Of a stretch of 29,103 bases of DNA, positions 5,401-25,777 are shown in pieces. Location: IMG/VR virus record IMGVR_UViG_3300025099_000095, positions 1 through 29,103 of that record; one strand, written 5' to 3'. A model generated the notes under the pieces. The model was not told where the DNA came from. It did no database searches and was given only the letters and a program-made list of their open reading frames with translations. Source of the stretch: a virus. The position numbers and the translations under genes are program-made. Numbering within the stretch: position 1 is the stretch's first letter; the number at the start of each line of letters is the position of its first letter.

Positions 5401-8400
5401 TAAAGTAAAGTTAGTGAATATATTTTCTAAGTCTTTCCATGTCATTAAATTACCTGAACTGGAATTACCCCAATATGCTGGATGTGTCATATAGGTTGCA
5501 CCTAATGGACCACTTAATTGATACAGACCAAAGAAATCTTTTGTTTCCGATGGTGCTAATTCTATAACTATTTCAGTATCGGTCCCCACTAAAGGGTTTA
5601 ATAAATCCATAGTAGGATTATCTAAAGAAGAATTATCCGAAGTAAAAGTAACATATTCTTTTGGTATTCTTATGAAACATCTATCTACAGCATCTCTATG
5701 CATTCTGTATAAATAAAATTCTGTAGTGTCGGATAACTCTACTTCCCATTTTCTCATTCCTAAATAAGTAGAATCCGAATAAATATGATTTATTATTTCT
5801 AATTTATCACCAATACAACATGGAGTAACCATTCCTATAGTATCTGCTTTTATTTTACCTATATTTTGTTCTCTTAGAGTTTTAGTAATATAAGGCATAC
5901 TAGTTTGTACCTTTGCTGTTCCTTCAATTTTAAAGTCATTAATAACTGTCGGGAATAACCCACCTAAACCATTCATTGCGTCATACATGACACTTTTCCA
6001 ATCAGAGTTTTTACAAATACATCTATTTAAATTACCTGGACTATTCATAACTGTGGCAGCTCTAGTAGAAGCTCCCCCCATGGTGTTACCCATATCCAAA
6101 TATCTCGAATGTCCCCCACCACTTGGTCCGTTAGGTCTTATCCATGGATAGGAGGTATTACTAATAACACTTGGTGTTGCTGGCCTACCAGTACTTTCCA
6201 ATAAACCTATGTCACAAGGAGACCAACAACGATAAGCGACAGCTCCTGAGAAACTATCTTGCATATTACAAATAGACCAATTAAATGGTTCTGTTATTGC
6301 ACACGTTTTAGCTTCATAGGTACATGCAGATTCTACCCATTCATAATAATATGGTTCTAATAAGTATGCTTGTCCGGCATTCTTAGTATCACCACCACAG
6401 CAGACTTTAGTACTACTGTTAAAGTAGAGTAAATTATTAGTTCCTGGGTCCACACTTTTCCTATCTTCTACACCATCCGCAAAAACTCCAAAAAGTTGAG
6501 TGTCTGCAGACATTACTGTAGTATCACAATTACATGGGTCTAAAAAGTCATCACCAACCATATAACTTGAGTCAAAACAATCTTGTCCTCCTATATTGTA
6601 TATTCCATCTTTGAAAATGACGGGATTAGTTGTAAATCCTGTTCCTGAAAATTGTGGTACATCTGGTATTTCTACTAAATCAGTACAATCTTCTCTAGGT
6701 CTAAAATCGTTACCTCCATCAAAACTCATTGGTGATATTGATAAATTTTCCCATGTTTGTGTGTATCCCGTACCACTAAATGGACCACATATCGTATTTC
6801 CAGTATAACTTTCTATTGCTCCTACAGTTGGTTCTGAGGTATTACCACTAATTAAACTTCTATAACATTCACGACCGTATTGTACAATCTGCCCAAGATT
6901 ATAAGATTTTTGTTGGGTCCATTGATTATAATTTTTCGGTTCACATGGTTGGGTACAAATAGCTTCACAATATTCAAAATCACCAAGAGCAAGTGTTGTA
7001 TCACCTTTTAAAAAGTCAAGTAAGTCTTTGTTGAACTCGTCTCCCGTAAAGAATTCAGCTTCATTTACTGATAAGAAAATTCCGTTTGGTGCACCTGGGG
7101 AAACCCATGGTCCCGTACAAGGTGAACCCACTCTTTGGTTGTATTCTGTATGTGTGTGGTCATTACAACTAAGTTGACCACGATATATATTAGGACTACC
7201 ACCAGGATAACCTACACATCCCTGATAACATGGTGACCCATATCCTAAATCTCCTATACCGTATTGAGTATTAGAGCAATTTCTTATTAATCTTTCATTT
7301 TGATGGCATGCTTCTGGCACCCCTTTACTTTTCCAATCCCAACCAAAATTCTTTAGTCCTGGACCCATATATCCTGTATGAACATTAGTTCCACTTACAC
7401 TGGTATATGGGTTACTATTTGTTATAGCTGATAATGTCCCCCCTGCAGCAAGTACTGTTCCATTTTCTTTTAATGGTTCTACACATGGTACCATATAAGT
7501 GTAAGCAGTAAAACCTGTAGCAGTAGGATTTAAACTACAGGTATCTCCAGTTTTACTAGTCCACTGACATACGGTAACACCAGTGAAATTATCTTGGACT
7601 GACCATTCTCTATATGGTGTATGTCCTGTTATTGTTGTCCCACCACTTAGATTATATTGGAAACATGTATCTGCGGGATTATTGGTAAATATACATCCTG
7701 TACACCACCCTGTTTCCATTGCCCCATAGACATGTAAATTCATATCCATTCTTTGAGGTAAGTTATCAATCGTCATTGGGTACATTAGTCCCGCAAAATA
7801 ATCAAATGTCGCATGAGCGGTCATAAAATTATTAAAGTCGGTAACATACGCTGCGGTTGGTTGTGCTATCCCACTACGACTCCAGTCAGCTGCAGCTCCA
7901 GTAGGTGGTCCTTTAGTGGTAAGTCCTTGTGCTCCATTAAAACCAAATTGGAGTCCTTGTGCATTAGGAGTTGGGGGACCTTGATTTGGTGTGGCCATAA
8001 CATTATTAAAGATACCGGTATTATCAGCAGTGTAATAAGAGGTATCTGACTCATCTACAAAATTAATTATAATTACATCTTTTGAACCTCCAGTCCATAG
8101 TCCATGACTTCCTTGACCAAAGTTACCGTTAGGTGGCATGTTCGCATCTGGAACTTCGTCGGGCCAAACAGCAAATCCACCATTTTCAGGTTCACAAAAT
8201 TTTCTAGGATTACCTAAAAAATATGGACCACCAGCATTACTCCAACATGGACTACAAGTGTCAGGTGCTGTGGATGAGGTTCTAATGGCGTGTCCATCTG
8301 CTGGATAACTCGACCACCCTAACCATCTTTCATTGGCCGCTGTATCTCCAAAAAGAGGAATGTGATAGGTCTTACCACTCCAACCTGTTGTCCTCATACT

Positions 8401-11400
8401 ATTACTAAACGTATCAATGGAAGCTTTGGCTGCAAACATTGTATCTCCTGGAGTGGAGGTTGTATCATAAAAGGCATATATGTCTGTTTTTTTAGACGCA
8501 ATACTCGCATAAACCCCATTAAGGTTAAGACAGGCCTCTGCTAAAAATGTCCCTGGGGTGGGACCATTTACTCCCCACATATCGGTACCACCACTACAAC
8601 ACCCTTGTACTACAATAGTTCGAGGATTGTCAATAGATGGTATTCCAGTAGTTGTATCATCAAACACATAATAACTAAAACACTCACCAGTGATACCACT
8701 TAAAATATTTACCATATTATCCAACCATAGGTCGGTAGTTGGTATGTCACTAATTGTTGTACTACTATAATAAACTGGACCCGTATACATAGTTCCGTTG
8801 AGGGTAATCTTATTAAACCAACCTGCTCCACTAAATGTAATTGAATTGGATGCGAGATGTCCATTTACTAATACTTCTTCAAATCTAGGACCAACACATT
8901 CTACCCATGAACCTAAACATTCTAAATCATCACAAACTGGTTCATGTTTATATGCGTATTTGTATCTATGAAATGCGGAATTTTCTATTTTTGTACCACC
9001 CTGCCAAATAGTCGTTGCGGGTACCATTTGTTCTACTAATCTCACCCAATAATCTTCCATGTTATCCACAAACTCTAACATTTTTTCGTAAGTGTACTGA
9101 TTATTTGGTATTCCACATACCGACTTACTGTTCAAATAATCTAGGTATACCATTTGTAGTGTTGGGTATCCTCCTCCGTGTCCGTCATCAATTGTAAGTC
9201 TATTTTTTACATTTACATGAATCTTCCAGAAACTTTCAGCAAATTCAAAGAATGAGAGTTTAGATGCGTCTATTTGAATTGGTGTCCAATCTGGTCCTAC
9301 CGGAGGTGATGGGTATAGTGGATTAAGGTCTACTAAAGGTTTTAATCCGTAGAGACACCCAAACTTATTAGAAGTGTTCCATACATCCCAAGTTAATCCT
9401 TGACCTACATTTAGGAATAAATCTACGTTTTTAACATTTAAAATTTGTCTATCAGTATGAGCGTAATATTTTGTACCTCTTCCTCTCAGTAATGAAACTC
9501 TATTTTGTAAGTTTACAAAACTTTCATCTTGTGTTCTTTTTTCGGATGCTACCCAAGATTTCTTATTATCCACTGTTCTAGATAAGTCATACCCTTCATT
9601 CATATCTGGGAATTTTCTTAAATAGTCTAAATATTTTTCACCATAGGTAAAAGGTCCGTATTGTGTAACTACAGAAGGACTATCACCAGTAAAAACCGAT
9701 TTCTTTTCATCTACAACCCTCGAACTTTTATGTTCTGGAGTTCTTTCAAACCACCCTGCTCCTGCTTGGAAATACCCATCTTTACTAAAGGTTGGTGGTA
9801 CTGGGTATCCGTCTTTCCCTACTGGATATTCTTCACGTATTGCTGTTACTTGTCTAGTTACCGCTGAAACTCCATATGTGTACCCCGTAATTGTAATAGG
9901 TATAACTCCTACTGTTGGTGGTGTTTCACTAAAGTACTGATTCCTTACCGGTACATCTTCGGTATATGTTCCACCGGAAAAACTATCTAGTTTTTGGTTA
10001 AACTTCTCTACATTAATACGATTACCCGCTAAGTAGACATGTTCATTAAATTCAATTAATCCTTGAGGTGCTCCGATTAATCTAAGAAGAAACTCAATAG
10101 ATTTTCGTGTTCCTTTAGATTTAAAGAGATAGGCGGTATTAACTAATATTTTTCTATATAATTCTAGATTAAGTTGGGTGGGTGTTTTATTAGTGGCTAC
10201 TCCAGCAAATTCTTGTTTCCCACCTCTACTAAACAAAGCATCCATGAGGTCAACTTGTGCGATAGAGTTTGGTGTTCCCCAACCTAACATTTGTGCTAAG
10301 TTCTTTAATAGAGTATCAGGTACATTGTGTATTTTATCGTAGGTGACATTCGTCATATATGCCAACCCATCTATATATTTTTTTACCTCATCAAAACTTC
10401 TTCCATATATTTGTAATACTTTTTCAAATGCTTGGTCTTCAGTATCAAATTCTTTAAGTGCTCCTGTAGTAAGGAATCTAGATATTAAATTAGTTTTATA
10501 TGAATCATAAGTAATTGCAATATCATTCAAGGAATTTAGATAAGTTGTAAAAGAAAATCCATCTATTAAAATATTCCAATTATCGGTTAATGGCCAAGTT
10601 ATACTTTTACTAGATTTAATTAATGCTCCACTATTTGACTCTCTTAACATGTCAAATTTCGCTGTATATAGTGGTATACTTTCTCTATTTAATAAAACTT
10701 GTTCAATATCACCTAACTCATCAAATATTTCTTCTGTATTTAAGGTACTAGGACGTATAATAAATTCTTTAGTAGTGGTAGTAGCAGCACTTGTTGTAGC
10801 ACTAAAAGGATTACCCTCTACCGTTATGACTAATGAACCACTCACGTTTGAGGTTGCTGGTGTTATATCCGTTACTGGGTATTCGTTGGACCCTATAAAT
10901 AAACTATATTTACTAAACTCTTTTGTAAAATTTCTAATTTCACTAACTCCGTCTGTGGTTCCTGTAAAAAATAAATTTCCAATAGTAGTGAATTCTATAG
11001 CAAATGGATTTTTAATTTGTAATACATTAACATTTAAGGTAGTCTCTTTATCAAAAGAATCATGTAATATATTAGTAGCTGTCTGACCTGTTAAAAAATC
11101 TGGTCTAACTTTTTCTACCGATAATCCAGCTGGAAAGTTTTTAACTACATTTTGAGTCGCAACTTTCATTCTTTCAGCTAAAGACCCATAGAGTGTAAAA
11201 TCAGTTACTTTATGTGGGTCATAATTAATAAAAGCTTTTAACTGATTATTTGCAAGTATCTTTGTTTGTTCAGGATTCTGTAAATTAATACTTTCTAAAG
11301 TAATTGGTTTTGAAAAATTACCTAAAGAAAATTCAGTATTTTGTTTATCAGTAACTGAAACGGAAATTCCAAAATTTCCTAATGTAAATTGACTAGACCC

Positions 11401-11481
11401 ATCGGTAAATTGATTACCAACTAAACCGTCACTAAAACTATCTAGTCCACTACTAGCATATATATTATTACCATTTGCCAT
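2434..11481 (-). CDS. Giant (3015 aa) gp7/gpI-like baseplate wedge protein with adhesin-like domains
   Basis: This is the largest gene here. Residues about 340-490 are helical and resemble the tail protein I/gp7 family of contractile tails, notably YLFKSKGTRKSIEFLLRLIG near 453-472. In T4-type baseplates gp7 joins gp6 and gp25 to form the inner wedge, and both partners are encoded upstream, which supports the call. T4 gp7 is about 1030 aa, so this protein is roughly three times longer. Residues about 990-1240 resemble a von Willebrand A fold: DIYAFYDTTST at 1000-1010, then DVIIINFVDESD at 1135-1146. Residues about 1517-1577 look like a CBM5/12 module. The middle is Cys-rich, and the C-terminus has six closely spaced Cys (2950, 2952, 2968, 2974, 2978, 2982). 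It ends with TAA, and the ATG follows a TAGTAG at the end of the preceding gene. The structural role is likely; the added domains are tentative. Confidence 0.8.
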   Translation of the reverse strand: MANGNNIYASSGLDSFSDGLVGNQFTDGSSQFTLGNFGISVSVTDKQNTEFSLGNFSKPITLESINLQNPEQTKILANNQLKAFINYDPHKVTDFTLYGSLAERMKVATQNVVKNFPAGLSVEKVRPDFLTGQTATNILHDSFDKETTLNVNVLQIKNPFAIEFTTIGNLFFTGTTDGVSEIRNFTKEFSKYSLFIGSNEYPVTDITPATSNVSGSLVITVEGNPFSATTSAATTTTKEFIIRPSTLNTEEIFDELGDIEQVLLNRESIPLYTAKFDMLRESNSGALIKSSKSITWPLTDNWNILIDGFSFTTYLNSLNDIAITYDSYKTNLISRFLTTGALKEFDTEDQAFEKVLQIYGRSFDEVKKYIDGLAYMTNVTYDKIHNVPDTLLKNLAQMLGWGTPNSIAQVDLMDALFSRGGKQEFAGVATNKTPTQLNLELYRKILVNTAYLFKSKGTRKSIEFLLRLIGAPQGLIEFNEHVYLAGNRINVEKFNQKLDSFSGGTYTEDVPVRNQYFSETPPTVGVIPITITGYTYGVSAVTRQVTAIREEYPVGKDGYPVPPTFSKDGYFQAGAGWFERTPEHKSSRVVDEKKSVFTGDSPSVVTQYGPFTYGEKYLDYLRKFPDMNEGYDLSRTVDNKKSWVASEKRTQDESFVNLQNRVSLLRGRGTKYYAHTDRQILNVKNVDLFLNVGQGLTWDVWNTSNKFGCLYGLKPLVDLNPLYPSPPVGPDWTPIQIDASKLSFFEFAESFWKIHVNVKNRLTIDDGHGGGYPTLQMVYLDYLNSKSVCGIPNNQYTYEKMLEFVDNMEDYWVRLVEQMVPATTIWQGGTKIENSAFHRYKYAYKHEPVCDDLECLGSWVECVGPRFEEVLVNGHLASNSITFSGAGWFNKITLNGTMYTGPVYYSSTTISDIPTTDLWLDNMVNILSGITGECFSYYVFDDTTTGIPSIDNPRTIVVQGCCSGGTDMWGVNGPTPGTFLAEACLNLNGVYASIASKKTDIYAFYDTTSTPGDTMFAAKASIDTFSNSMRTTGWSGKTYHIPLFGDTAANERWLGWSSYPADGHAIRTSSTAPDTCSPCWSNAGGPYFLGNPRKFCEPENGGFAVWPDEVPDANMPPNGNFGQGSHGLWTGGSKDVIIINFVDESDTSYYTADNTGIFNNVMATPNQGPPTPNAQGLQFGFNGAQGLTTKGPPTGAAADWSRSGIAQPTAAYVTDFNNFMTAHATFDYFAGLMYPMTIDNLPQRMDMNLHVYGAMETGWCTGCIFTNNPADTCFQYNLSGGTTITGHTPYREWSVQDNFTGVTVCQWTSKTGDTCSLNPTATGFTAYTYMVPCVEPLKENGTVLAAGGTLSAITNSNPYTSVSGTNVHTGYMGPGLKNFGWDWKSKGVPEACHQNERLIRNCSNTQYGIGDLGYGSPCYQGCVGYPGGSPNIYRGQLSCNDHTHTEYNQRVGSPCTGPWVSPGAPNGIFLSVNEAEFFTGDEFNKDLLDFLKGDTTLALGDFEYCEAICTQPCEPKNYNQWTQQKSYNLGQIVQYGRECYRSLISGNTSEPTVGAIESYTGNTICGPFSGTGYTQTWENLSISPMSFDGGNDFRPREDCTDLVEIPDVPQFSGTGFTTNPVIFKDGIYNIGGQDCFDSSYMVGDDFLDPCNCDTTVMSADTQLFGVFADGVEDRKSVDPGTNNLLYFNSSTKVCCGGDTKNAGQAYLLEPYYYEWVESACTYEAKTCAITEPFNWSICNMQDSFSGAVAYRCWSPCDIGLLESTGRPATPSVISNTSYPWIRPNGPSGGGHSRYLDMGNTMGGASTRAATVMNSPGNLNRCICKNSDWKSVMYDAMNGLGGLFPTVINDFKIEGTAKVQTSMPYITKTLREQNIGKIKADTIGMVTPCCIGDKLEIINHIYSDSTYLGMRKWEVELSDTTEFYLYRMHRDAVDRCFIRIPKEYVTFTSDNSSLDNPTMDLLNPLVGTDTEIVIELAPSETKDFFGLYQLSGPLGATYMTHPAYWGNSSSGNLMTWKDLENIFTNFTLDGNRKYGYQLEINLICNGLPADAIEFNDKIVSYGGLDTIDNDIPSGKPCPTNLNAPMLQLTPLDGNKKEVSDTMTSLMNSSLTQLAGEGGLVEFNYQQYFNRYHPSVDTEDYEIVDGNIYAVLNNTPYKSGLEIPYNQTSVNVIVDPTTRVATRTALTYTDSNGYEKVKLNWFSTIVQTYPNHTTQLFFRNQSVRDGFAYSLTSKQIGNVESYNLYNPDYKTVVGTGPDERSSSTFEEIPALSTEMNFSLSAVTVGALSPTNSFHKTFIKYKNLNDWVERTLGNDIFSNSYARYRSDGELDYFEIRKDYTTALGVDNSGNNLYTPLKSLNVELLATTYGDWRTFRREYHQLSGLTTQYTGYTNLGIYNSGSTNNNLNSDLTFDLVYTYSGFTGTTVIPMNGPTADGATLQGGSNTITAACVKPEVLNENGGPLYKQVNVDNDYIYYKILTTAEYRFQYQGALTLDYYDTGWCEYLRNYYKIYTDYSYPSNDYHYKNLVNSSILYAGGGSDVTTQEGYDSNPYTNISPYWRVTPSYGFSQYKGIDHLKAEIWIERKLSGSTSAVTLTQYVIGNNPQVYPTADKFLTLDVTPGDLIADTYNISGATCGYPSVSGDSGHVFTKIVDVSLDTKCIKLNAGDEIRLKHRVNWTSTSKMSGATSVNLRLGSKTVNMETTYPWYRVTMDACNTKKQALGLVWDVDNYGRDLIWWNNGKKFTGKEKGSLFVTTMFDSQPLVYSPPINNEKDITNLTYLDVSQKYRGEFELGISKSKSARWNETLLNGGFTNAVQPFGTEPFSSHGMMTYWTMPRFNSYVGETPPFPNYQHTYLVETIFQVKGTDRRFSHMVYYNDNPDTTMNYFNATTLFGNPADVGTGRDYIVQNRNQTERKMYFSLSDLIIDGEPITIRTNQYNLYSSLEATEEYTTLCECRVENEGKVIADKTLNCKNNTSCGRKCQEFCKGVRPNQTMVGKLKSLGINTPIGRSTLGRNNRY

Positions 11482-11484
11482 CTA

Positions 11485-12390
11485 CTATTCTATATTGCTA
11501 AATGCTTTACTAAAGTCTATATTATTTCCTTTGTCTTTTCTTACTTCATATAATGGAGTACCGAATTGGTCTCGTTTTTCATATAATGTGTATTGTTTAT
11601 AAATGTTATTGTCTGCATCATATAGAGTATAAATTCCATCACTCAATGACTTACTTTGATTACCGTATAATGCAATACCTAAACTTTCTACGTCATAATC
11701 TACCATTTCAATATCTAAAGTAATTGGATTAAAATAAGTGTTAGTAATTATTACACTTTGGTCTGGTTGTCCAATATAAGGAAGTGCACTTGGTTTATTG
11801 GTAGGAGCTGAAGTTGGTGTTAAGGTACAGAATAAGAGATTACTTCCTCCGTTTACATATCTATATCTAATCGCTTTCTGACTACTATTAGTTAGGTTTT
11901 GAGTTACTGGTTCACAGAAAAAGGATGAAGTTACTATACGGTAGAAGTTTGGTATCTTAGTCCCATCTGAATTAAGATATTCGATTCTAAAACCTACCAA
12001 TCCATTATTAACAAATCTATTTCTAAATTTACTATCTACGTTATTAAGGTCAAATACTAACCCTTTAACATTAGGTAAAGAAGAAAGAACCCCACAATCG
12101 GTAATTGTGGTCCTTATTTCTACTGGTTTAATGTATACCGTATAAATTCCTTTTTTATCAAACTCAGATGATGGTAGCTTTAAATTGTAAAGACCACCTA
12201 AAATTTCTACATTTGCATTACCTGAGGTATTTCCGTTATGATAATAAGGTGCTAAGATTGCGTTTGCGTCTAAACTTTTTACAACCACACCACTGTTTGC
12301 TTCCCTTGTAGGGGTATAAACCATAACAATATCTACATCTTCTGGTGATACGTCAGCGGGTCTTTTTATTCCATATGCTCCTAATGCCAT
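11485..12390 (-). CDS. Phage structural protein of unknown function (301 aa)
   Basis: I do not recognise this protein. It starts at an ATG preceded by AAAAAATTAAAA and no Shine-Dalgarno motif, and ends in TAG followed immediately by a second TAG before the next ATG. The sequence is rich in beta-forming residues and Asn, with no signal peptide, membrane segment or catalytic motif that I can see. The N-terminal part (ALGAYGIKRPADVSPEDVDI) and a C-terminal stretch (DGIYTLYDADNNIYKQYTLY, near residue 255) look like compact conserved blocks. It lies between the 941-residue repeat protein and the giant gp7-like protein, so a baseplate or tail-fibre attachment role is a reasonable inference. It could be an adaptor joining the surface proteins to the wedge, but nothing in the sequence shows that directly. 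Confidence 0.8.
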   Translation of the reverse strand: MALGAYGIKRPADVSPEDVDIVMVYTPTREANSGVVVKSLDANAILAPYYHNGNTSGNANVEILGGLYNLKLPSSEFDKKGIYTVYIKPVEIRTTITDCGVLSSLPNVKGLVFDLNNVDSKFRNRFVNNGLVGFRIEYLNSDGTKIPNFYRIVTSSFFCEPVTQNLTNSSQKAIRYRYVNGGSNLLFCTLTPTSAPTNKPSALPYIGQPDQSVIITNTYFNPITLDIEMVDYDVESLGIALYGNQSKSLSDGIYTLYDADNNIYKQYTLYEKRDQFGTPLYEVRKDKGNNIDFSKAFSNIE

Positions 12391-17160: not shown

Positions 17161-18111
17161 TTATACTGGGTTTACGTATTCCCAAAACTCTATCGGGGTG
17201 TTTATACTTGTTCCTACTCTAGTACCTGCCATGTCTTCAACCCAATAGGTAAAATTATTTTTATCTAAGAGTAATTTATAATACATATTATTGGCTGGGT
17301 CAAAACTAGTCGGGTTAGGTAATGTGGACGGGTCTACATTGGTAAATCTAGACACCTCACCATCTCTACCATTATAAAACTTTGTAGACATATAGAAAGT
17401 ATTAAGATTTAAATAGGTACTCTCTTTTAACCAATAAAAGAAGTAACCTATACTTTTATTATCCATATCAAAGTGATAACGGGGTATTGGTACATTACGT
17501 GCAGTATCTAATACTGTATTTAACCCACTAGCATCCATTATTGGGGGGTCGGGAACATTCATATTTAAAGCACCCCATTCTGAAATAACTTGTGCTGGTG
17601 TTGACCCAATAATGTTATTCATACAATCTGCATCTATGGCAGATAAATTAAGTTTAGTACCATTCACGGGACTAAGAATATTGGACATATAGAATTTTTG
17701 TCTTGTCTTTACAGGATTATCATAAAAATCTAACTTAAAGAAACTTTTTAACAAATCAGAGGTATTTTCCCCCAATTCCTGATTGGTGTAACCTTTAAAG
17801 TTAAATCCAAACGGGTAGGGTTGGAATGGTGTGGCGAAGGGGAGTGTCGTAGGGTAGAGTCCCGTAGATACTTGATAAAAGTTAAACTGGTAGAATATAT
17901 CGGGACTTTCTTCACTATTATCTAATAATGGAGCATGTCTATATCTACTTACTTCAAAGTCTTTAGTGGGATTTACTAATTTTCTTACTACGTCATTCTC
18001 ATATACTTTTATTAAATCTTCTCTACCAGTCTCATCGAAAGTAGTACCGAACCCTAGTTGAATGACTGGGTCTTTAGTGTTTATATTAAATGTAAATTTA
18101 TTCGCAGCCAT
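17161..18111 (-). CDS. Phage structural protein of unknown function (316 aa)
   Basis: Not recognised. Its start (ATG in AACAGATGGC) lies inside the end of the upstream 597-residue gene, overlapping it by 14 bases in another frame, which points to translational coupling. The sequence is rich in Phe, Tyr, Asn and Pro, with no signal peptide or membrane helix. The N-terminal block (FTFNINTKDPVIQLGFGTTF) and the aromatic-rich middle suggest a folded beta-rich virion protein. Given its place between two other structural genes in a baseplate block, I infer a baseplate or tail component. I cannot match it to a named T4 protein such as gp8, gp9 or gp10. Confidence 0.8.
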   Translation of the reverse strand: MAANKFTFNINTKDPVIQLGFGTTFDETGREDLIKVYENDVVRKLVNPTKDFEVSRYRHAPLLDNSEESPDIFYQFNFYQVSTGLYPTTLPFATPFQPYPFGFNFKGYTNQELGENTSDLLKSFFKLDFYDNPVKTRQKFYMSNILSPVNGTKLNLSAIDADCMNNIIGSTPAQVISEWGALNMNVPDPPIMDASGLNTVLDTARNVPIPRYHFDMDNKSIGYFFYWLKESTYLNLNTFYMSTKFYNGRDGEVSRFTNVDPSTLPNPTSFDPANNMYYKLLLDKNNFTYWVEDMAGTRVGTSINTPIEFWEYVNPV

Positions 18112-19891
18112 CTGTTAAAAAGTCATCTATTATTTCTGTTAATCCTGTAACTGACAGGTCTGATTCCATTCTAATCTGTTTTTGAACATAGAATGGGATA
18201 ATTTTACTTGGGTATTGAGCGTTATTCATAAAAGGATAGTCTACACCATGTCCCCCTTCTATAAACCCTATCTCCCACAAATCTCTCCATCTCCAAGTTT
18301 TTTCTCTTTCCCAGTATTCTGCCCAATCTGGTATATCAATCACTTCTTGTGGGTCTCCAAACTCGATGTAGGTGGAGAATCTTCTGATGGGAACCTCGTA
18401 GTGTGGTTTATAAATATAACCTTTAACCCCATCTATAGTATCTTGTGACATCATAAACACCGAAGAATTCCAACTAAATTGGTGTTTTATTTCACTTATA
18501 ACTCTTTCTTTTAGTTCTTCCGCATTATATTCACAGAAATCTCCTCTCAGTAAGTCCCCAACTCTTAATTCTGTACCTCTCATTAATCCAGTACCACCCG
18601 GTAGAACATCTACTATAGGACCAGAAGGTTGTGGGTCTCCTATATCTCCTCTTACAATATTAGGACCAACTGGTCCGAATGGTAAAGGTACACCTGAGGC
18701 ATCTCCAACCCCACTAATGGAAGTATCCATGAAAGTTAGGGGGAAATTCCATTCCCACCCATATCGTGGGGGATAATTAAAGTAACCTAAATCATTTCTT
18801 AAAAATACTGTAACATATAAGTTTGTAAGTGGTCTTCCTAGATTATCTCTTAGAGTTTTAACATCTACATCTCTGGTGAAAGAATATAAATACGAAGGGT
18901 AACTATTCTTAACCGAAACCCTACATGAACCTAAAGGTGTCACTTTATCAACTTGTTTAACATCCGGAAAAACTCCTTGTTCAAAACCACAATCATCAAG
19001 TACTGTATCCGATACTTTTGTTAATATTTTATTTACTCTCACATAATATTGAGAAAGACTTTCAGGATTGGCTTTATTAGTTTGCCTTCTCATGGTACCC
19101 ATTGCAAAATTCGGTAGTGTTGGAAAACCTACCACCGTTCCTTGAGGAAAAAGTAAATTAAATACGGTTTCGGAAGAATTTCTAGTTGAGTCACCTACAC
19201 TATAAACTGGAAAGATAGTATCTCTAAGAGTGTATGTTGTCCCTTGACCATCATCCATATTTAATACCACATATTCACCCGTACTTAATCCATGGGGAGC
19301 ACCACAATAAAATCTAATCATATCTCTTCCGTTCAAGGTTATTTGTTGAGTATGAAAAGGAATTCCTTGGTTTGCTAAAAAAGCTATAGTGTTTGAGGTT
19401 GGTGATTGTTCTGCTTGGTACCACATTCGTTGGTCACTCATACATTCAGATGGGTAAGTTAGGAACATATTCCAATTAGTGGTGGTAGATAAAAATTCAT
19501 CTACATCCTTTCTTTTAAAATCAAATTCTTGAAATTGTGGATAACCAGGCCAAGGAGAAAATGCTGTACCTCCAGAACTGTGGATATAATATAATTGTTG
19601 AAAAAGTAGGGTTGTAAATCCACTGGAACTCGAACTCGTATCTGTATTTATAGCTAATCCACCATAGTCATTATCTATAAAAGGTGATATTTTACCGTAC
19701 ACTCTATAGTTACTTATATTTTGTCTTTCATCATTAAATCTATCATTAATATTCAGATTTACAGTTCTATCTCCCTGTATCAAAGGTCTAGAAGTGTCAT
19801 TTAATGTAACTTGGAAAGTTAAGTCTTCTTCCGTTGCACCAGCAAACTTTTTACTTGGTATAACTTTTAATATGTTTTCTCTATTTCCCAT
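18098..19891 (-). CDS. Phage baseplate-block structural protein of unknown function (597 aa)
   Basis: Not recognised with confidence. The gene starts at ATG in GAGTATGGGA, 3 bases after the 1170-residue gene's stop, and overlaps the 316-residue gene by 14 bases. The first 70 residues (LTFQVTLNDTSRPLIQGDRT, then NDRFNDERQNISNYRVYGKI) look like an assembly or docking segment. The middle is aromatic and beta-rich. The C-terminal 150 residues contain many Trp, Glu and Asp (PDWAEYWEREKTWRWRDLW) and resemble a conserved interaction surface. No enzymatic motif is visible. By position just after gp25-like, gp6-like and the 1170-residue protein, it may be a wedge component equivalent in role to T4 gp8 or gp10, but I see no specific similarity that would show this. 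Confidence 0.8.
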   Translation of the reverse strand: MGNRENILKVIPSKKFAGATEEDLTFQVTLNDTSRPLIQGDRTVNLNINDRFNDERQNISNYRVYGKISPFIDNDYGGLAINTDTSSSSSGFTTLLFQQLYYIHSSGGTAFSPWPGYPQFQEFDFKRKDVDEFLSTTTNWNMFLTYPSECMSDQRMWYQAEQSPTSNTIAFLANQGIPFHTQQITLNGRDMIRFYCGAPHGLSTGEYVVLNMDDGQGTTYTLRDTIFPVYSVGDSTRNSSETVFNLLFPQGTVVGFPTLPNFAMGTMRRQTNKANPESLSQYYVRVNKILTKVSDTVLDDCGFEQGVFPDVKQVDKVTPLGSCRVSVKNSYPSYLYSFTRDVDVKTLRDNLGRPLTNLYVTVFLRNDLGYFNYPPRYGWEWNFPLTFMDTSISGVGDASGVPLPFGPVGPNIVRGDIGDPQPSGPIVDVLPGGTGLMRGTELRVGDLLRGDFCEYNAEELKERVISEIKHQFSWNSSVFMMSQDTIDGVKGYIYKPHYEVPIRRFSTYIEFGDPQEVIDIPDWAEYWEREKTWRWRDLWEIGFIEGGHGVDYPFMNNAQYPSKIIPFYVQKQIRMESDLSVTGLTEIIDDFLTDGCE

Positions 19892-19894
19892 ACT

Positions 19895-22800
19895 CTAATC
19901 TAGTGGTGGCATATAACCATTAACAAATTTATCATAAGCATTATTTCCTTGATATAAACCAAAATAATAATGATAGTATCCCATAGATACTTTATCGGTA
20001 GACGGTATGAGGGACGGGATAGGTCCCGTTGGGGGTACTATTATGGGTCCTGGTTGTGATGGATTACTTACAATACTAATACCACTGTTATTTGCTGCCT
20101 CCCAATTATTATCTCTATTTCCAAAATTTACACCCGCTCCTTTTTTCCATGGATAATATGGAATTGTTTGAGCACGACTATACCCAGTACTCCCACCCAT
20201 TAATCTATTTCTTAAATCCATACTATCTATTTTCATTTCTTTCTGTGCATACGTATTATCGATAGCTGGGTCAAGAATTGTTGGTGGTAGTGGACCGTAG
20301 TTGGGGTCTGTTGGGTAATAAAAAGGACTTTGGTATTTGTGTATAGACATTTCATTATTAAAAGCGACTGCTTGTGCGATGTCACCATCTAATAACCTAT
20401 ATTGTCCCCCTGCAAGACCTGCACTACTAGCTTTGAGTTCACGTTTATTCCTATCAGACGCACCTCCTGAAGCTGGGAACCCAAATGTTTGCCATGCCCT
20501 ACTACCACCAAACCAGTTATTAACTCCAGCAAATTGTATTTCACCCCAATTATAACCCATTAATTTTTGATTAATAAAATAATCTAAAATTCCTGCTGGT
20601 GATTGTGCGGAAGATGATTGTAGTTGGTCTATGAAAAAATCGGTAGCTAGTTCACTATCACAATCTACACAGGAATTATTGGTACTTAAATCTTCAAAGG
20701 TACCCAATTCTATTACTGTTGTGGGATAATTAATACCTTTATAGAACATTCTATATTGGATGGTTGCTGTCCCTCCATTTTCTGGTTTTTCATATGAGAA
20801 AGAACCTCCCGCACTCGGGTTGTTTGCTTGAAATATTCCTGTAGTAGGATTATAAGGAGCACTTCTGTAATAATATTCGTTTGGGTTGGTGAAACCATCA
20901 TCAGGACCTACAATAATATCTCTACAAAAATAATCAGTGGTAGTTTCTGTTAGGGTACTTGGGTCTGTACTTTTTATTTTTTTATTGTCAAACCTAAAAT
21001 GGTAAAGGGTACCTCTAATCCAAGATGCCCAGAATCCCATATTAAAGATACCTTGACATAAACCATTATATATGTTTTTTCTTACTCTCCATTCATTAAG
21101 ACCAAAGAATATAACACCCAATCTATTCAACATAAAAGTTGCAATCAATATAACAAAACCATCTATAATAAGACCAATAAGAACAGGGCTTAAGGCAGCC
21201 CCCGCTCCAGGTATCCATGCAAATACAGCTCCAATTGTTATCATTGTCCATATAGCTACTGTAAATGTAGCTTCTAATCCAGACCCATCATAACTAATGG
21301 TATAACATCCCGCCATACTGGTTTTATCTTCTCCATCATCTATATCTTCACCATGTTCTTCACTATAATATAATTTATTACTAGCTCTTAATGCTGGAAT
21401 TTGACAATTAGGGTCGTCTACTAATGGACTACCCGATTCTTGTTGTATTTCTCCTGCTCCCCAAAGACCCGGAAAATCCATATCAAAAAATGAACCACAA
21501 TTACAATCTTCACACTCATCATATTTGGTTAGGGGTAATCTATACTTCATAGAAGTCACCCCAGCCTGTAATAATCTAACCATAGTTATCGCAATAGCTA
21601 CTTGTATTAAAGCAAAAGCAAATGCCCCCACCGCAGATAAAATTGCACCAATAGGAAGTAGAGCACCTAAACCAAGTACTATATTTAAGATTTGGGTCAT
21701 AGCGATAGCTAAAGCATTAACAGCTGATGCCACATGGAGGAGTAGACTATATGTTTCAAAAAGAACCATTAACGCTAAGAGGATATATGGAACAAATATG
21801 GATAAGACTGTTAAGAATAAAGTTAACTGTGTTATAACAAAAATAAACGACCCTCCTCTAAAACCATCGTTGGCAGGAAATTCTCTTATACTTCCACTAC
21901 AATCTACTTCTTTGGCGGGATTAGTACTTTTTATCCCTACAAAATCCCATCTATTTCTTTTAGCCCCATATCCACTATGCATTACCCCTCTACCTGGGAT
22001 GTCAGAATTGGTTGCGTCTGCATCAAAAGGTGTTTGACTATAATCATTCCTATAAATGTCTATAAACTGACCTAGACTATATACTCTGTCTGGTAACATT
22101 TCATAAAAATAGTCTTCTCCTAAAAATGCTGGTGAACTTAAATAGTTGTTACATTTTATACTTGGACTAGAACCCATATCGTGTGGATAATCTAATAATT
22201 CAGTAGAAAATTGATAACTGTCTATAAATTGGTCCGTATACTCTCTAATATTTGGTACTAGATATTTTCCTTTACGGGTTCCCGCACCTGTTTCACTATC
22301 AAAACTAAGTCTAAACCTATATTTACCTCTAGTCGGTACTCCTACAGAAGGGTCAGAAGATATTTGTTGATTTCCAAATTCATCGGTATAGATGTAATCT
22401 AAGTTCATAGGGACTTTAGCTACAAAAGACCCCGTACCATCTATATTGTGTAAATTTATTTTTTCTAATTTAGGTCTACAAGAACAACCTGGTTTTTCAT
22501 CATTTTCTTGAAATACTGTAAATCTAATCGCTTCTATTTTACCACTCCCTGTAGTTAATTTACATACATCACCTTGATTTCTACTTGGTCCACACTGCCA
22601 TCCAACACTCCCACTATTATCATCGGTAATAATACTCCCCATAAATAACGCGTTAGGTCTAAATTCGACATTGGAGTCTCTTAGGTCAAAATCAACTCTA
22701 GAAATACCAGAATTACACATCTCATCATCTCCCCAGAAGGAAACTGATTCTACTGTTTTATTTTGAATTACTATTTGTGGTAAAGTATCTAAGTTTTCTG

Positions 22801-23407
22801 ATTCATTAAATACAGCAGAGTTTTTAAATTTTTCTATTGGTACCCCTTGGGATACAAAGTCAAATGGTTTCATTGAGTAACATCCAATGTCACTTACGTC
22901 CACAGACATGTGTATTTGATGGATACCCAACGGTACCCCCCAAACCATGTAGTCTCCATTTTCATTAGTTTTTACAGTAAATTTATAATATTTCTCAAAT
23001 ACTTCTAATTTAAGAGGATTGGATATAGTTTCCTCCGCTGTTAAGAAACTTCCTGTTGGAGTGTGTCGGTTATGTTGTTTAGTGGTAGGTAAAAGATTAT
23101 ATCTATATCCTTCTTCATTTTTATCTGTAACATCCTTAAAAGGATACAGTGCGGTTATCGCATCATCTTGTTCATCTTCTGCGGTTAAAGGAATAAAAAT
23201 GGAAAGTTTTGCATTAGGGACACCCAAACCACTATTTGCTACTACTCTACCTACAATTACACCGTAGTCTGCACACATTCTTGCATACACCTCTGACTGA
23301 GTCAATTTTAGACTCAAAATTTCTAAAAGGTCAAAGTCTTGTTGTAAGTTTACTTTTACAAACTTATCTTCACCTACTTTTGTTCTTATTCTATATGATT
23401 TGGGCAT
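19895..23407 (-). CDS. Baseplate/tail protein with CnaB-like N-terminus and multiple predicted membrane segments (1170 aa)
   Basis: The N-terminal 175 residues resemble a carboxypeptidase-regulatory/CnaB-like beta domain: VGRVVANSGLGVPNAKLSIF near 52-71 and TVKTNENGDYMVWGVPLG near 140-160. Two strongly hydrophobic zones follow. Residues about 519-620 could form four membrane helices (for example FVPYILLALMVLF). Residues about 711-775 could form two or three more (VLIGLIIDGFVILIATFMLN), with a further hydrophobic patch near 782-802. Between them lies a soluble loop with a Cys cluster (CEDCNC). Multiple membrane segments are unusual for a non-tape-measure tail protein. The gene lies 73 bases downstream of the gp6-like gene and begins at ATG; it ends in TAG. 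A structural protein that inserts into a host membrane during infection is my inference. A tape-measure role is possible but less likely because of the N-terminal beta domain and the neighbours. Confidence 0.82.
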   Translation of the reverse strand: MPKSYRIRTKVGEDKFVKVNLQQDFDLLEILSLKLTQSEVYARMCADYGVIVGRVVANSGLGVPNAKLSIFIPLTAEDEQDDAITALYPFKDVTDKNEEGYRYNLLPTTKQHNRHTPTGSFLTAEETISNPLKLEVFEKYYKFTVKTNENGDYMVWGVPLGIHQIHMSVDVSDIGCYSMKPFDFVSQGVPIEKFKNSAVFNESENLDTLPQIVIQNKTVESVSFWGDDEMCNSGISRVDFDLRDSNVEFRPNALFMGSIITDDNSGSVGWQCGPSRNQGDVCKLTTGSGKIEAIRFTVFQENDEKPGCSCRPKLEKINLHNIDGTGSFVAKVPMNLDYIYTDEFGNQQISSDPSVGVPTRGKYRFRLSFDSETGAGTRKGKYLVPNIREYTDQFIDSYQFSTELLDYPHDMGSSPSIKCNNYLSSPAFLGEDYFYEMLPDRVYSLGQFIDIYRNDYSQTPFDADATNSDIPGRGVMHSGYGAKRNRWDFVGIKSTNPAKEVDCSGSIREFPANDGFRGGSFIFVITQLTLFLTVLSIFVPYILLALMVLFETYSLLLHVASAVNALAIAMTQILNIVLGLGALLPIGAILSAVGAFAFALIQVAIAITMVRLLQAGVTSMKYRLPLTKYDECEDCNCGSFFDMDFPGLWGAGEIQQESGSPLVDDPNCQIPALRASNKLYYSEEHGEDIDDGEDKTSMAGCYTISYDGSGLEATFTVAIWTMITIGAVFAWIPGAGAALSPVLIGLIIDGFVILIATFMLNRLGVIFFGLNEWRVRKNIYNGLCQGIFNMGFWASWIRGTLYHFRFDNKKIKSTDPSTLTETTTDYFCRDIIVGPDDGFTNPNEYYYRSAPYNPTTGIFQANNPSAGGSFSYEKPENGGTATIQYRMFYKGINYPTTVIELGTFEDLSTNNSCVDCDSELATDFFIDQLQSSSAQSPAGILDYFINQKLMGYNWGEIQFAGVNNWFGGSRAWQTFGFPASGGASDRNKRELKASSAGLAGGQYRLLDGDIAQAVAFNNEMSIHKYQSPFYYPTDPNYGPLPPTILDPAIDNTYAQKEMKIDSMDLRNRLMGGSTGYSRAQTIPYYPWKKGAGVNFGNRDNNWEAANNSGISIVSNPSQPGPIIVPPTGPIPSLIPSTDKVSMGYYHYYFGLYQGNNAYDKFVNGYMPPLD

Positions 23408-23480: not shown

Positions 23481-25319
23481 TTATGTGATGGATGGTTGGG
23501 ATAGGGTTTTAATCCTTACTGCTATATCCTTATTTGGTAATTTCACTTGAAATATCTGATTTGGTTGTGCGAATAGGGTACCATCTATCAAAGCTATTTC
23601 TTTGGTTGAAGCGTTTTTATAAGGTTGTGAAACGGTATTTTCAGAGTAATCACCTCCCACTTTATTAAAGAGTCGAAGGTCTACTAAGTTTATTACCCCT
23701 GGTTGGTTTACGATATCTTTTGTTAGTTCCCCAGTAAAGACATCTTTCCCCATTTCTTTATTGTCGGGACTGAAAAAGGTTGTAGTTTTATCTATAATGT
23801 TAGTTACTATGTCTGCTTGATTGAATCCAGGGTCGATTATTAAATCCATTTCTAGTGATAAGTCTATAACTTCAGCGGATGTTACACTTATATAATCATT
23901 TAACATTCTATAGTCCGATAGATACTCCGCGATATTTTTCATCATCGTAGTACTTACCTTAGACGTTAATGAACCATCTTCAGAATAAGATAAAAGATTA
24001 ATAAAAATCTTATTTTCCACTTCCATAACCCCTACTTTTGCTGGAGACCCAAAAACACTTGGCATAGTCTGTATTCTAGAAACATAATCATTTATGGTTA
24101 CAGCTCTTTGTTGTGCGGAAAAATTAAATGAAATATAATTTCTTATTTCTTCTACACTCGGTTGATTGGCTCCTCCAATTGCGGAAGTTACATTATTCAC
24201 GGTTAAGGAATCTCTTACAGCAGAATTAATACTACTTATTGGACCATTAATAGCAAAATCTATACTGGCTACCGTATTAACACTATTAGGTCCTACATTC
24301 GTTCCTTTACCACCACCAACACGATACTGAATAAAAATAGTAGTGTTAGACTGTGGTGCTCTCCCTAATGATAAATTATTCATATATTGGTTAAGGTCTA
24401 ACTTATAACCTGTGGAAGTTAAATCATCAAGTGAGTCTTCTGCAGAACTACTTCCCCCACCTAAAGTTAGAAAAAAGAAACCTTCTGGGGTGTATTCCGT
24501 AATAAATCTCTGGTCTGTGTTTTGCCACTTTCCTATCTTAATACCTGGTTTATCTGATTTTTTACTACTATCTTCTATAAAAACTTTATCCTGTACCAAT
24601 GCTTCTACCTCATACCATTTATTTGTCGCATTAATAAAGTCGGTATTTTTAGGTAAAGCTTGGATACTTGTACCATCTTTTTGCATTACCGCTGTAACTC
24701 CTAATACATTTTTTTCTGGTAAGAAAACTTTAAGAAATGGTTTAACGTCTGTACTAGTTATTACTTTTTTAAACACTTTAGTAACTCCATTAACTACGAC
24801 CTCTCTCTTAGTTATTGTATAATTTATTACATTTCCGTTTGAGTCGAAGTTAGGGGTCTTAGTTCGATTAGGAAAACCTTTACTATCATATGCACTTGCG
24901 AAGTCTACATCATTTACTAACTCAAAAACTTCACCACCTCCTTTAAATTGTGAATTTCTTCTTAATAACCCCAGATACCTAGTATTCTCTTTATCTCCCA
25001 TAACTGGAACCGTAACCGATAAATCTACAACTGCCACTGAAGGACGATTACCAGGTATTTTTAAACCATAAGTTCTTGCTATATTGAAGAGGGAAGAACG
25101 TTGTTGTGCATATTCCAACACTGTTTCCTGTAAACTTCTATCTATGTGATAGTTAAGATTATCTCCGATTGCCGCATTTAAATCTAATAGAACTGAAAAT
25201 ATAGAAGCGTCATTTGCGTTTTGGATTAATTCTGGATATTGTTCTTTAACATATTTTAACAAGTCGGTCCTTAGTCCAACAAAATCTCTTTCTGTATATG
25301 ATATTTTATTATTTGCCAC
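23481..25319 (-). CDS. gp6: Baseplate wedge subunit, gp6/J-like (612 aa)
   Basis: The N-terminus (YTERDFVGLRTDLLKYVKEQ at 8-27, NDASIFSVLLDLNAAIGDNL at 36-55) and the following LKIPGNRPSVA segment are typical of Baseplate J-like proteins such as T4 gp6. A second family hallmark, RAVTINDYVSRIQTMP, lies near residue 405. The length (612 aa) is close to T4 gp6 (660 aa). In T4-type phages, gp6 dimers form the ring of the baseplate with gp25 and gp7. Both partners occur here: gp25-like directly upstream and a gp7-like giant downstream. The start codon is GTG, not ATG, and its G is the last base of the upstream TAG (TAGTG), so translation is probably coupled. A TAA lies in frame 9 bases upstream of the GTG, which excludes a longer form. 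The stop is TAA. Confidence 0.92.
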   Translation of the reverse strand: MANNKISYTERDFVGLRTDLLKYVKEQYPELIQNANDASIFSVLLDLNAAIGDNLNYHIDRSLQETVLEYAQQRSSLFNIARTYGLKIPGNRPSVAVVDLSVTVPVMGDKENTRYLGLLRRNSQFKGGGEVFELVNDVDFASAYDSKGFPNRTKTPNFDSNGNVINYTITKREVVVNGVTKVFKKVITSTDVKPFLKVFLPEKNVLGVTAVMQKDGTSIQALPKNTDFINATNKWYEVEALVQDKVFIEDSSKKSDKPGIKIGKWQNTDQRFITEYTPEGFFFLTLGGGSSSAEDSLDDLTSTGYKLDLNQYMNNLSLGRAPQSNTTIFIQYRVGGGKGTNVGPNSVNTVASIDFAINGPISSINSAVRDSLTVNNVTSAIGGANQPSVEEIRNYISFNFSAQQRAVTINDYVSRIQTMPSVFGSPAKVGVMEVENKIFINLLSYSEDGSLTSKVSTTMMKNIAEYLSDYRMLNDYISVTSAEVIDLSLEMDLIIDPGFNQADIVTNIIDKTTTFFSPDNKEMGKDVFTGELTKDIVNQPGVINLVDLRLFNKVGGDYSENTVSQPYKNASTKEIALIDGTLFAQPNQIFQVKLPNKDIAVRIKTLSQPSIT

Positions 25320-25777
25320 TATAAATTAATTATTACGAAATCTTTAGTTTCAAAAGCACTACTAGTGGTAGTAAAATCTACCCTCACTTTAGCTGTGTAC
25401 TCTTCTGCAGCGGCTCCCGATACCCGATAAACTCTATCATCGTTAGTGGTAACCAGTGTCCCTTCGGTTTCTTCCGCTTCTTTCATTGGTGTTATTATTA
25501 TATTATCTATCCTTAAATTAGGAATATATTTATCTACTTGTTCTCTTATTTCAGCCTCGATAGAATCAAACGTTGGGGTGTCCATCGGTTCAAATATATA
25601 TTCATAAAGACGTGTACCAAAATCTGGGAGGAAATACCTCATTCCTTTCCTAGTTAAAAGTAGATGGATTAAATCAGCTTTAATTTCATCCTCTGGGGTC
25701 TCTGTCAAATCGAACATGTACCCTAGTCTACTCTTATTTAAAGGAAAATTTATCCCGTATGTTCCAAATTCTGGCAT
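25319..25777 (-). CDS. gp25: Baseplate wedge/sheath-initiator protein, gp25/gpW-like (152 aa)
   Basis: The protein has the gp25 family pattern: a compact N-terminal segment, then KADLIHLLLTRKGMRYFLPD and FGTRLYEYIFEP (residues 33-64), and an amphipathic helix (FDSIEAEIREQVDKYIPNL) followed by beta strands. gp25 is the most conserved protein of contractile tails; it links the inner baseplate to the first sheath ring. Its length is close to T4 gp25 (132 aa). It starts with ATG in an AT-rich context with no Shine-Dalgarno motif (AAAAAACTTATAATG) and ends in TAG, overlapping the gp6-like GTG start by one base. The 25-6 gene order is the usual one in T4-like phages. The internal stretch at residues 98-125 (MKEAEETEGTLVTTNDDR) is a probable surface loop. 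Confidence 0.93.
   Translation of the reverse strand: MPEFGTYGINFPLNKSRLGYMFDLTETPEDEIKADLIHLLLTRKGMRYFLPDFGTRLYEYIFEPMDTPTFDSIEAEIREQVDKYIPNLRIDNIIITPMKEAEETEGTLVTTNDDRVYRVSGAAAEEYTAKVRVDFTTTSSAFETKDFVIINL

Follow-up and report, generated by a model that had tools for sequence, protein, structure and literature searches.

Hydrophobic helices in P0001, a member of an unnamed baseplate-cluster protein family of uncultured contractile-tailed phages, and their possible insertion into the host envelope

The stretch analysed here (called the window) is the IMG/VR virus record IMGVR_UViG_3300025099_000095, 29103 bases in length. Its minus strand carries a gene, P0001, whose 1170 amino acid product belongs to a large, unnamed family from uncultured contractile-tailed phages. 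P0001 is best read as a structural baseplate protein of a large T4-like contractile phage, with a putative location in the virion. The helices in the middle of the protein are very probably genuine and strongly hydrophobic, and the reading we tentatively favour, with somewhat less than even confidence, is that they insert into a membrane of the host envelope during infection.

The P0001 open reading frame (ORF) is intact, with the exact coordinates and length of the first-pass annotation of this DNA, made from the letters alone, which gave no strand. That annotation placed the gene just after gp6, and P0001 indeed starts 73 bases past the stop codon of the gp6 homologue P0002. A near-identical gene (99.8%) is present in the 65.6 kb contig behind locus L001. 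The ratio of nonsynonymous to synonymous change (dN/dS) against five relatives is 0.10–0.18 over the whole gene and below 1 in all five pairs in hydrophobic zone 1 (0.14–0.65, with high dS in several), so it is unlikely that P0001 is a non-coding artefact. The gene and its parts are as follows, with model values from AlphaFold2 (AF2), given as the predicted local distance difference test (pLDDT), and hydrophobicity from the Kyte-Doolittle (KD) scale.

19895..23407, minus strand: P0001, 1170 amino acids, member of the unnamed baseplate-cluster family
22661..23278, minus strand: residues 44–249, CnaB/transthyretin-like/carboxypeptidase-regulatory beta domain (AF2 pLDDT block means 74–90; match to 2nsm)
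21869..21880, minus strand: residues 510–513, FPxN motif just before zone 1 (P511 and N513 at least 90% conserved in the A4 alignment)
21551..21847, minus strand: residues 521–619, zone 1, predicted helices 521–579 and 586–619 with an uncharged turn, family-wide
21497..21514, minus strand: residues 632–637, Cys cluster CEDCNC after zone 1 (C632 at least 90% conserved)
21293..21496, minus strand: residues 638–705, linker, where long homologues have several hundred extra residues
21056..21277, minus strand: residues 711–784, zone 2, predicted helices 711–730 and 736–784, with KD peaks there listed for the window's clade and L051
20999..21034, minus strand: residues 792–803, FxxxWxxGxLYxF motif (F792, W796, G799 and L801 at least 90% conserved), modelled as strand
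19898..21055, minus strand: residues 785–1170, C-terminal part, ending in a conserved YFG...G motif

Hydrophobicity was scored over 19-residue windows (KD19), with a peak cut-off of at least 1.6 and a stronger cut-off of 2.0; the scales used were Kyte-Doolittle, Eisenberg and biological insertion. Two of the three zones proposed in the first-pass annotation are clearly hydrophobic: 519–620 has a mean KD of 1.80 with charged or His residues at 3 of 102 positions, and 711–775 a mean of 1.48 with 5 of 65. The third, 782–802, is not (best KD19 0.71); it is mostly strand in the AF2 model and runs into the conserved motif at 792–803. The count of "six or more" segments was also too high, as P0001 has five non-overlapping KD19 peaks (starting at residues 530, 566, 589, 714 and 742) and four AF2 helices; six peaks do occur in one relative, L005. 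None of the 12 other translated proteins of the window has a peak of 1.6 or above. A chance hydrophobic run was tested in two ways: 1000 shuffles of P0001 have a mean of 1.18 peaks, with two in 1000 reaching five and two in 1000 reaching the observed maximum of 2.65, and none of 351 other ORFs reaches 2.0.

Those 351 ORFs, of at least 500 amino acids and from the same loci, are the control for a set of 141 distinct family members of at least 600 amino acids, from which identical sequences, shorter ORFs and ORFs open at the 5' end were left out; the members are related to each other, and counts over them are not independent. (L079, a relative by tblastn that was missed by the hidden Markov model (HMM) search, is in neither set.) A KD19 window of 1.6 or above starts between residues 430 and 620 in 140 of the 141 members (first start 443 to 580), and 117 have a window of 2.0 or above in that place; among the controls 32 of 351 reach 1.6 and none reaches 2.0 anywhere in the protein. 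Insertion energy, a rough approximation and not the published predictor, is below 1 in 107/141 members versus 0/351 controls. The best 19 residues have no charged or His residue in 55/141 members and one in 51/141, with a mean hydrophobic moment of 0.25. Counted over residues 400–900 in 100 distinct complete ORFs, KD peaks range from none to six: one ORF has none, 44 have one, 32 have two, 12 have three, 8 have four, 2 have five and 1 has six. The window's clade, which has a second hydrophobic zone, groups with L051 (support 1.0) in a tree built from the N-terminal part. The 747 amino acid member L026, which has no hydrophobic segment at all, falls among segment-bearing members with weak support (0.49), and this placement suggests that it lost its segment.

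Complete members range from 747 to 2094 amino acids, with one shorter ORF above 600 (L135, 605), and share a common order of parts: an N-terminal part whose ~450 residues are well conserved, an FPxN-like motif, a hydrophobic stretch, a CxxC, an insert of variable length and a conserved C-terminal block that contains the W..G.LY motif and finishes with YFG...G. An FPxN-like motif (in the loose form [FP]P.[NTS]) precedes the first hydrophobic segment by no more than 45 residues in 114/133 members examined, and a CxxC no more than 220 residues past the start of that segment in 108/133. The variable insert displaces the second half of the protein considerably: residue 770 of P0001 aligns with about 1467 in L022 (1865 amino acids) and about 1524 in L025 (1930 amino acids).

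The AF2 model of P0001, built with 57 sequences, has a mean pLDDT of 71, a predicted template modelling score of 0.73 and a beta-rich N-terminal half. The four helices listed above have pLDDT values of about 66–84 in most ten-residue blocks, and the turns between them are uncharged. The C-terminal part folded alone gave a mean pLDDT of only 51, perhaps because the alignment is too thin or because this part packs against the N-terminal one. The CnaB-like N-terminal domain of the first-pass annotation is supported by both model and fold matches. VIA-align of residues 44–249 gave 2nsm at Z 8.6 (root-mean-square deviation 2.1, 79 aligned residues, 23% identity) with many pilin, SdrD and transthyretin rows, and while Z values near 8 are close to the background quoted for that tool, the rows concur on one fold; Foldseek gave SdrD (10ps) at E 5.5e-4. 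The absence of other fold families from such match lists is no evidence against them. The Pfam family CarboxypepD_reg was found below its cut-off (13–15.9 versus 32.3 bits) in three of five homologues scanned. The likeness to CnaB, SdrD B-like and carboxypeptidase-regulatory domains is thus one of fold and of a single domain, residues 44–249; it differs from the CnaB-type Pfam families in that neither P0001 (no Pfam match at E <= 0.1) nor the homologues scanned reach a gathering score. Fold matches to residues 520–783 (6s7o_E, top Z 8.8, and 9go6_N) were taken as common helix arrangements and set aside.

The gene place of the family is nearly constant. It was examined in 139 loci that differ from each other in the first 300 residues. 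Of the 135 that could be assessed upstream, 131 have gp6 no more than 1.5 kb before the family gene (median gap 75 bp), all but L026, L135, L149 and L161; on the other side the P0003 family follows in 88 of 92, all but L109, L135, L149 and L161. L149 and L161 branch deeply, and the family gene is preceded there by ORFs of 542 and 533 amino acids that the gp6 profile does not recognise; in L149 the P0007 and P0008 families are further upstream, so the cluster is rearranged there. P0002 is identified as a gp6 homologue by several matches (PHROG 219, E 3.5e-21; Baseplate_J, E 8.8e-5; hhalign with T4 gp6, 81%), and it is preceded by the gp25 homologue P0010 (GPW_gp25, E 8e-12; hhalign with T4 gp25, 97%). 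The assignment of P0001 to the baseplate block therefore stands, and mainly because of this conserved place we regard it with high confidence as a conserved structural protein of the baseplate cluster.

Zone 1 changes quickly in sequence while keeping its hydrophobicity. Identities of P0001 to L002, L005, L003, L011 and L062 are 88, 86, 85, 74 and 72% over residues 1–505, and 80, 56, 63, 40 and 35% in zone 1, which is the fastest-diverging part or nearly so; the KD19 maxima of zone 1 in these relatives are 2.6, 2.8, 2.8, 2.5 and 2.1. Changes to a charged residue or His make up 11/224 substitutions in zone 1 and 7/132 in zone 2, compared with 67/472 in residues 1–505 and 79/630 in residues 785–1170, counts summed over five comparisons that all share P0001 and so are not independent. 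Membrane-like composition, uncharged turns and fast divergence with high hydrophobicity kept all speak for contact with lipid.

A further line of evidence comes from the tape measure proteins. In the related contig G006, a 687 amino acid protein encoded after sheath, tube and hub reads like a tape measure by its position and sequence character, and we treat it as a candidate; PHROG matches did not label it a tape measure, no annotated relative came up in tblastn, and a profile of it matched the tape measure candidate of phage Mel-JY01 weakly (E 4.5e-5). The G006 candidate was matched in 12 of 22 related records, among them G006 and every one of the seven virus records above 125 kb. The maximum KD19 of the 12 candidates is 0.81–1.62 (that of L211 is cut at the locus end). 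Phages immuto and Mel-JY01 are related cultured phages that have gp6 and no match to the P0001 family, and their tape measures are longer and strongly hydrophobic compared with these candidates: annotated immuto gp37 has 1006 amino acids and a maximum KD19 of 2.24, and WWT39328 of Mel-JY01, a tape measure by similarity to that of immuto, has 1348 and 2.37. Those of T4 (gp29, 2.20) and P2 (gpT, 2.49) are likewise hydrophobic. In the retrieved sequence of immuto, Mel-JY01 and LR756508 from gp6 onwards, no ORF of at least 250 amino acids has a KD19 of 1.6 or above. This complementary pattern suggests that different proteins carry the hydrophobic element, the baseplate protein in phages of this family and the tape measure in their cultured relatives; the pattern may reflect a single evolutionary event.

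When zone 1 alone was scanned for 50 members, weak PHROG matches to nine families were found, four of them tape measure families (best E 6e-4, uncorrected for 50 scans): phrog_1068 in three of the 50 members (best E 9e-4), and phrog_9483 (6e-4), phrog_30543 (0.0096) and phrog_1535 (0.048) in one each. Weak Pfam matches of the same 50 zones were to seven families, one member each, and mostly to membrane families.

In the mechanism we favour, the beta-rich N-terminal part and the conserved C-terminal part would form a body in the wedge region beside gp6, a place indicated by synteny. Into this body the hydrophobic stretch would be inserted as two helix-turn-helix units with uncharged turns, as predicted from sequence and model, zone 1 between the FPxN motif and the Cys cluster and zone 2 before the W..G.LY motif. 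The helices would be shielded inside the baseplate between assembly and infection; tail binding and contraction would expose them and let them enter a membrane of the host envelope, where they might anchor the baseplate or open the membrane ahead of the tube. The tape measure pattern leads us to suppose that in the P0001 lineage this element may replace the hydrophobic segment of the related phages' tape measure. A bolder form of the idea, which we consider rather improbable, is that the membrane-inserting element moved from tape measure to baseplate protein in a large uncultured T4-like clade, so that on contraction the baseplate drives hydrophobic hairpins into the envelope and builds or initiates the DNA passage, the tape measure being a ruler only; if true, this would be a second architectural solution for crossing the envelope with a contractile tail. 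Once the tube of a contractile phage has pierced the outer layers, the DNA must still pass the inner membrane, and how it does so is an open question. A widespread unannotated baseplate-cluster family that keeps a hydrophobic stretch, in phages whose tape measure candidates have none, offers a concrete place to test this.

Several observations weigh against membrane insertion, and some of them favour a reading in which the helices never meet lipid and are instead buried, at the centre of an oligomer or against neighbouring wedge proteins, where they serve only to hold the baseplate together; we regard that as possible and more doubtful than insertion. The statement of the first-pass annotation that T4-like wedge proteins lack such segments does not stand by this measure: T4 gp7 (gene 7, L200:7061-10159) has a KD19 of 2.07 at residue 886, gp11 reaches 1.66, and gp18 reaches 1.71, the latter two each passing 1.6 in one window, and because gp7, gp11 and gp18 all pass 1.6, hydrophobicity alone is not decisive. 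The gp7 record carries the note "C-terminus is predicted integral membrane domain", and the protein is part of solved baseplates. Helices of 49 and 59 residues exceed a single bilayer crossing, and 24/141 members are below 2.0, some with acidic or His residues inside the segment (for example L106 and L067), and L026 has no segment. Substitutions that cross the AVILMFWCG line are no rarer in the zones (71/224 in zone 1, 42/132 in zone 2) than in residues 1–505 (150/472); only changes to charge are rarer in zone 1, and the genetic code itself restricts such changes in part. Residues of both charges flank the helices (K/R 2, 3, 1 and 3; D/E 2, 2, 2 and 1), so that no positive-inside pattern clearly emerges. 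Low pLDDT values of 51–57 mark the zone 1 turn (571–590), and "hairpin" here describes the order of the predicted helices. Members are also longer than control ORFs (median 1331 versus 612 amino acids), which raises member maxima a little. Among tape measures, those of Mu (gp42, 1.29) and lambda (gpH, 1.59) have no strong segment, and no P0001 family member was found in those phages; searches of G001, G002 and G005 gave no match to a tape measure of the window's own clade. On the other side, buried cores are usually conserved. The fast divergence of zone 1, the membrane-like composition of the best 19 residues in many members, and a segment number in residues 400–900 that can be anything from 0 to 6 among the 100 complete members speak against a buried bundle.

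Alternatively, the helices could have no role in entry and act during assembly, either by fixing the growing baseplate on the infected cell's inner membrane or by recruiting a chaperone for assembly. We think this unlikely. Membrane-anchored contractile machines do exist (tCIS Cis13, PMC8894136, see below), the hydrophobic regions of the TP901-1 tape measure have been suggested to recruit chaperones (PMC5099701), and in a reducing cytoplasm the conserved Cys clusters close to the segment could well serve as metal sites; yet virions must be released, so that such an anchor would need to let go, and no chaperone gene was recognised beside P0001, where no dedicated search was made. A phage membrane protein that acts in the infected cell, for example in superinfection exclusion, and lies in the baseplate operon by chance would account for real hydrophobic helices and is very unlikely given the near-constant place between gp6 and other conserved cluster genes, the large size, the CnaB-like domain and the SprB adhesin repeats of member L024. 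Least probable of these is that P0001 is itself the phage's tape measure in an unusual place. Its hydrophobic stretches, the weak tape measure PHROG matches of zone 1 and the missing tape measure of the window's clade would fit; against it, the gene follows gp6 and not tube and hub, the N-terminal part is beta-rich, and members have 747 to 2094 amino acids compared with 612–816 for 11 of the 12 tape measure candidates (the twelfth is cut at the locus end). The first-pass annotation had likewise found P0001 a poor fit to a tape measure, and the separate candidate in 12/22 related records led us to reject a disguised tape measure.

Among known proteins, T4 gp7 resembles P0001 in being large, encoded directly after gp6 and in having a strongly hydrophobic stretch; it differs in that its stretch is near the C terminus (residues 877–909) and those of P0001 are internal. 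A place directly after gp6 is common to gp7/TriA and P0001, and position alone does not make P0001 a gp7. In hhalign, the A5 profile against single-sequence T4 gp7 gave 0.25%, a test that recovered gp6 and gp25 for their homologues and is perhaps insensitive for gp7. Hydrophobic tape measures (T4 gp29, P2 gpT, immuto gp37 and the TP901-1 tape measure) share with P0001 that they are tail proteins with membrane-like helices, and zone 1 has the weak PHROG similarity given above; because its place and body differ, and a separate candidate exists in relatives, P0001 is not filed as a tape measure. The hydrophobic regions of the TP901-1 protein have been suggested to function in chaperone recruitment or assembly and not in membrane insertion (PMC5099701), which also counts against our reading. 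In the Anabaena thylakoid-anchored contractile injection system (tCIS), PMC8894136 describes a baseplate-bound fibre protein, Cis13, with a predicted transmembrane helix, without which 9 of 14 machines were free-floating. Cis13/Cis12 would be a parallel to P0001, as a baseplate-attached protein whose predicted transmembrane segment ties a contractile machine to a membrane; Cis13 differs in having a single C-terminal helix of a trimeric fibre that anchors in the producing cell, and the helices of P0001 are internal (PMC8894136). If membrane insertion is right, the way P0001 works would resemble that of the Cis13 anchor or of the membrane segments in tape measures, and we file it under neither. 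Tail proteins with membrane-like segments are already known; what is new is the family, and a place that is unusual for such a protein.

The family is widespread in IMG/VR. A single-sequence scan with P0001 found 8 loci, a profile scan 24 that include those 8, a profile with distant members at least 577 relatives among 600 pattern stretches, and a profile led by L026 at least 544 among 600; 80 loci were kept from each of the two largest scans, whose lists share contigs. It should thus be a useful handle for annotating environmental phage genomes. Against annotated phages, tblastn of P0001, L026 and L024 gave no match, and a search with the family HMM around gp6 in immuto, Mel-JY01 and LR756508 turned up no convincing hit. 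Full-length P0001 matches no PHROG at E <= 0.001, and PHROG, Pfam and PDB-sequence searches with P0001 and its profiles gave nothing convincing, the few rows (E of 0.035 or above) being attributable to chance. A clear homologue of known non-membrane function, which the first-pass annotation named as a finding that would speak against it, was not found in the PHROG, Pfam, PDB, annotated-phage and fold searches made. In the searches made of the open-licence PMC literature the family was not found named in any paper, and no paper was found that combines a carboxypeptidase regulatory-like domain with a phage baseplate. As far as these searches go, the databases appear to know the family only as unnamed entries. 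The best structural match to the P0001 model, A0A8S5LA66 of Myoviridae sp. ctPuP5 (BFVD; uncharacterized; E 4e-50, 1011 columns, 23% identity, TM-score 0.45/0.52), is by that model match probably a distant family member.

The SprB repeats of L024 (Pfam PF13573, E 3.7e-12) are C-terminal in a 1455 amino acid member (L024:1850-6217), an adhesin-type repeat fused to a baseplate-cluster protein. SprB is a gliding adhesin of the Bacteroidota, and because of these repeats and the Flavobacterium host of immuto a Bacteroidota host is suggested. Hosts may be wider than that, since Mel-JY01 infects Microcystis and one family contig, L027, is labelled Prochlorococcus. L027 (QCKH01000004.1, a Prochlorococcus single-amplified genome) and L026 (a Candidatus Wolfebacteria metagenome-assembled genome) are two family contigs from GTDB genomes, and they look like phage contigs carried inside those bacterial assemblies. 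We note that another contig (C12) of the same assembly as L027 (G010) contains a tape measure homologue.

Other genes of the window that bear on the cluster are listed here in reading order.

25319..25777, minus strand: P0010, gp25-like baseplate wedge protein (Pfam and hhalign matches)
23481..25319, minus strand: P0002, gp6-like baseplate wedge protein (PHROG, Pfam and hhalign matches)
18098..19891, minus strand: P0003, next gene downstream, whose family follows P0001 homologues in 88/92 assessable loci
17161..18111, minus strand: P0004, conserved downstream neighbour, family somewhere downstream in 75/92 loci, many of them short
11485..12390, minus strand: P0007, conserved downstream neighbour, family somewhere downstream in 58/92 loci, many of them short
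2434..11481, minus strand: P0008, 3015 amino acids, residues 346–481 matching a long ORF after gp6 in LR756508

P0001 is thus followed by P0003, P0004, P0005, P0006, P0007 and then P0008. The last is a possible TriA/gp7-like protein; it has no Pfam or PHROG match, and hhalign against T4 gp7, with the same perhaps insensitive test, gave 0.22%. Its N-terminal part is common to a 1003 amino acid protein in the same place in the L025 contig and to an open-ended 687 amino acid ORF in L024. P0006 (12402-15227) contains repeated Cys-rich units of the form GC.DP.A.NYNP.A..DDGSC.Y, has no Pfam match at E <= 0.1 and is possibly adhesin-like. A common hydrophobic string, FDPLAI, occurs in a 439 amino acid ORF (L049:1425-2744, ORF 27 of G001), which has four KD peaks and lies in the contig near-identical to the window, and in a 377 amino acid ORF of Mel-JY01 (L029:7704-8837), and the two may represent a conserved phage membrane protein. 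Further upstream of P0010 in the reading direction are genes for a ribonucleotide reductase and a DnaB-type helicase. The ribonucleotide reductase (26032-27933) has a weak Pfam match to a B12-dependent insertion domain and shares 69% identity with its counterpart in Microcystis phage Mel-JY01 and 63% with Oceanospirillum and Vibrio phage proteins.

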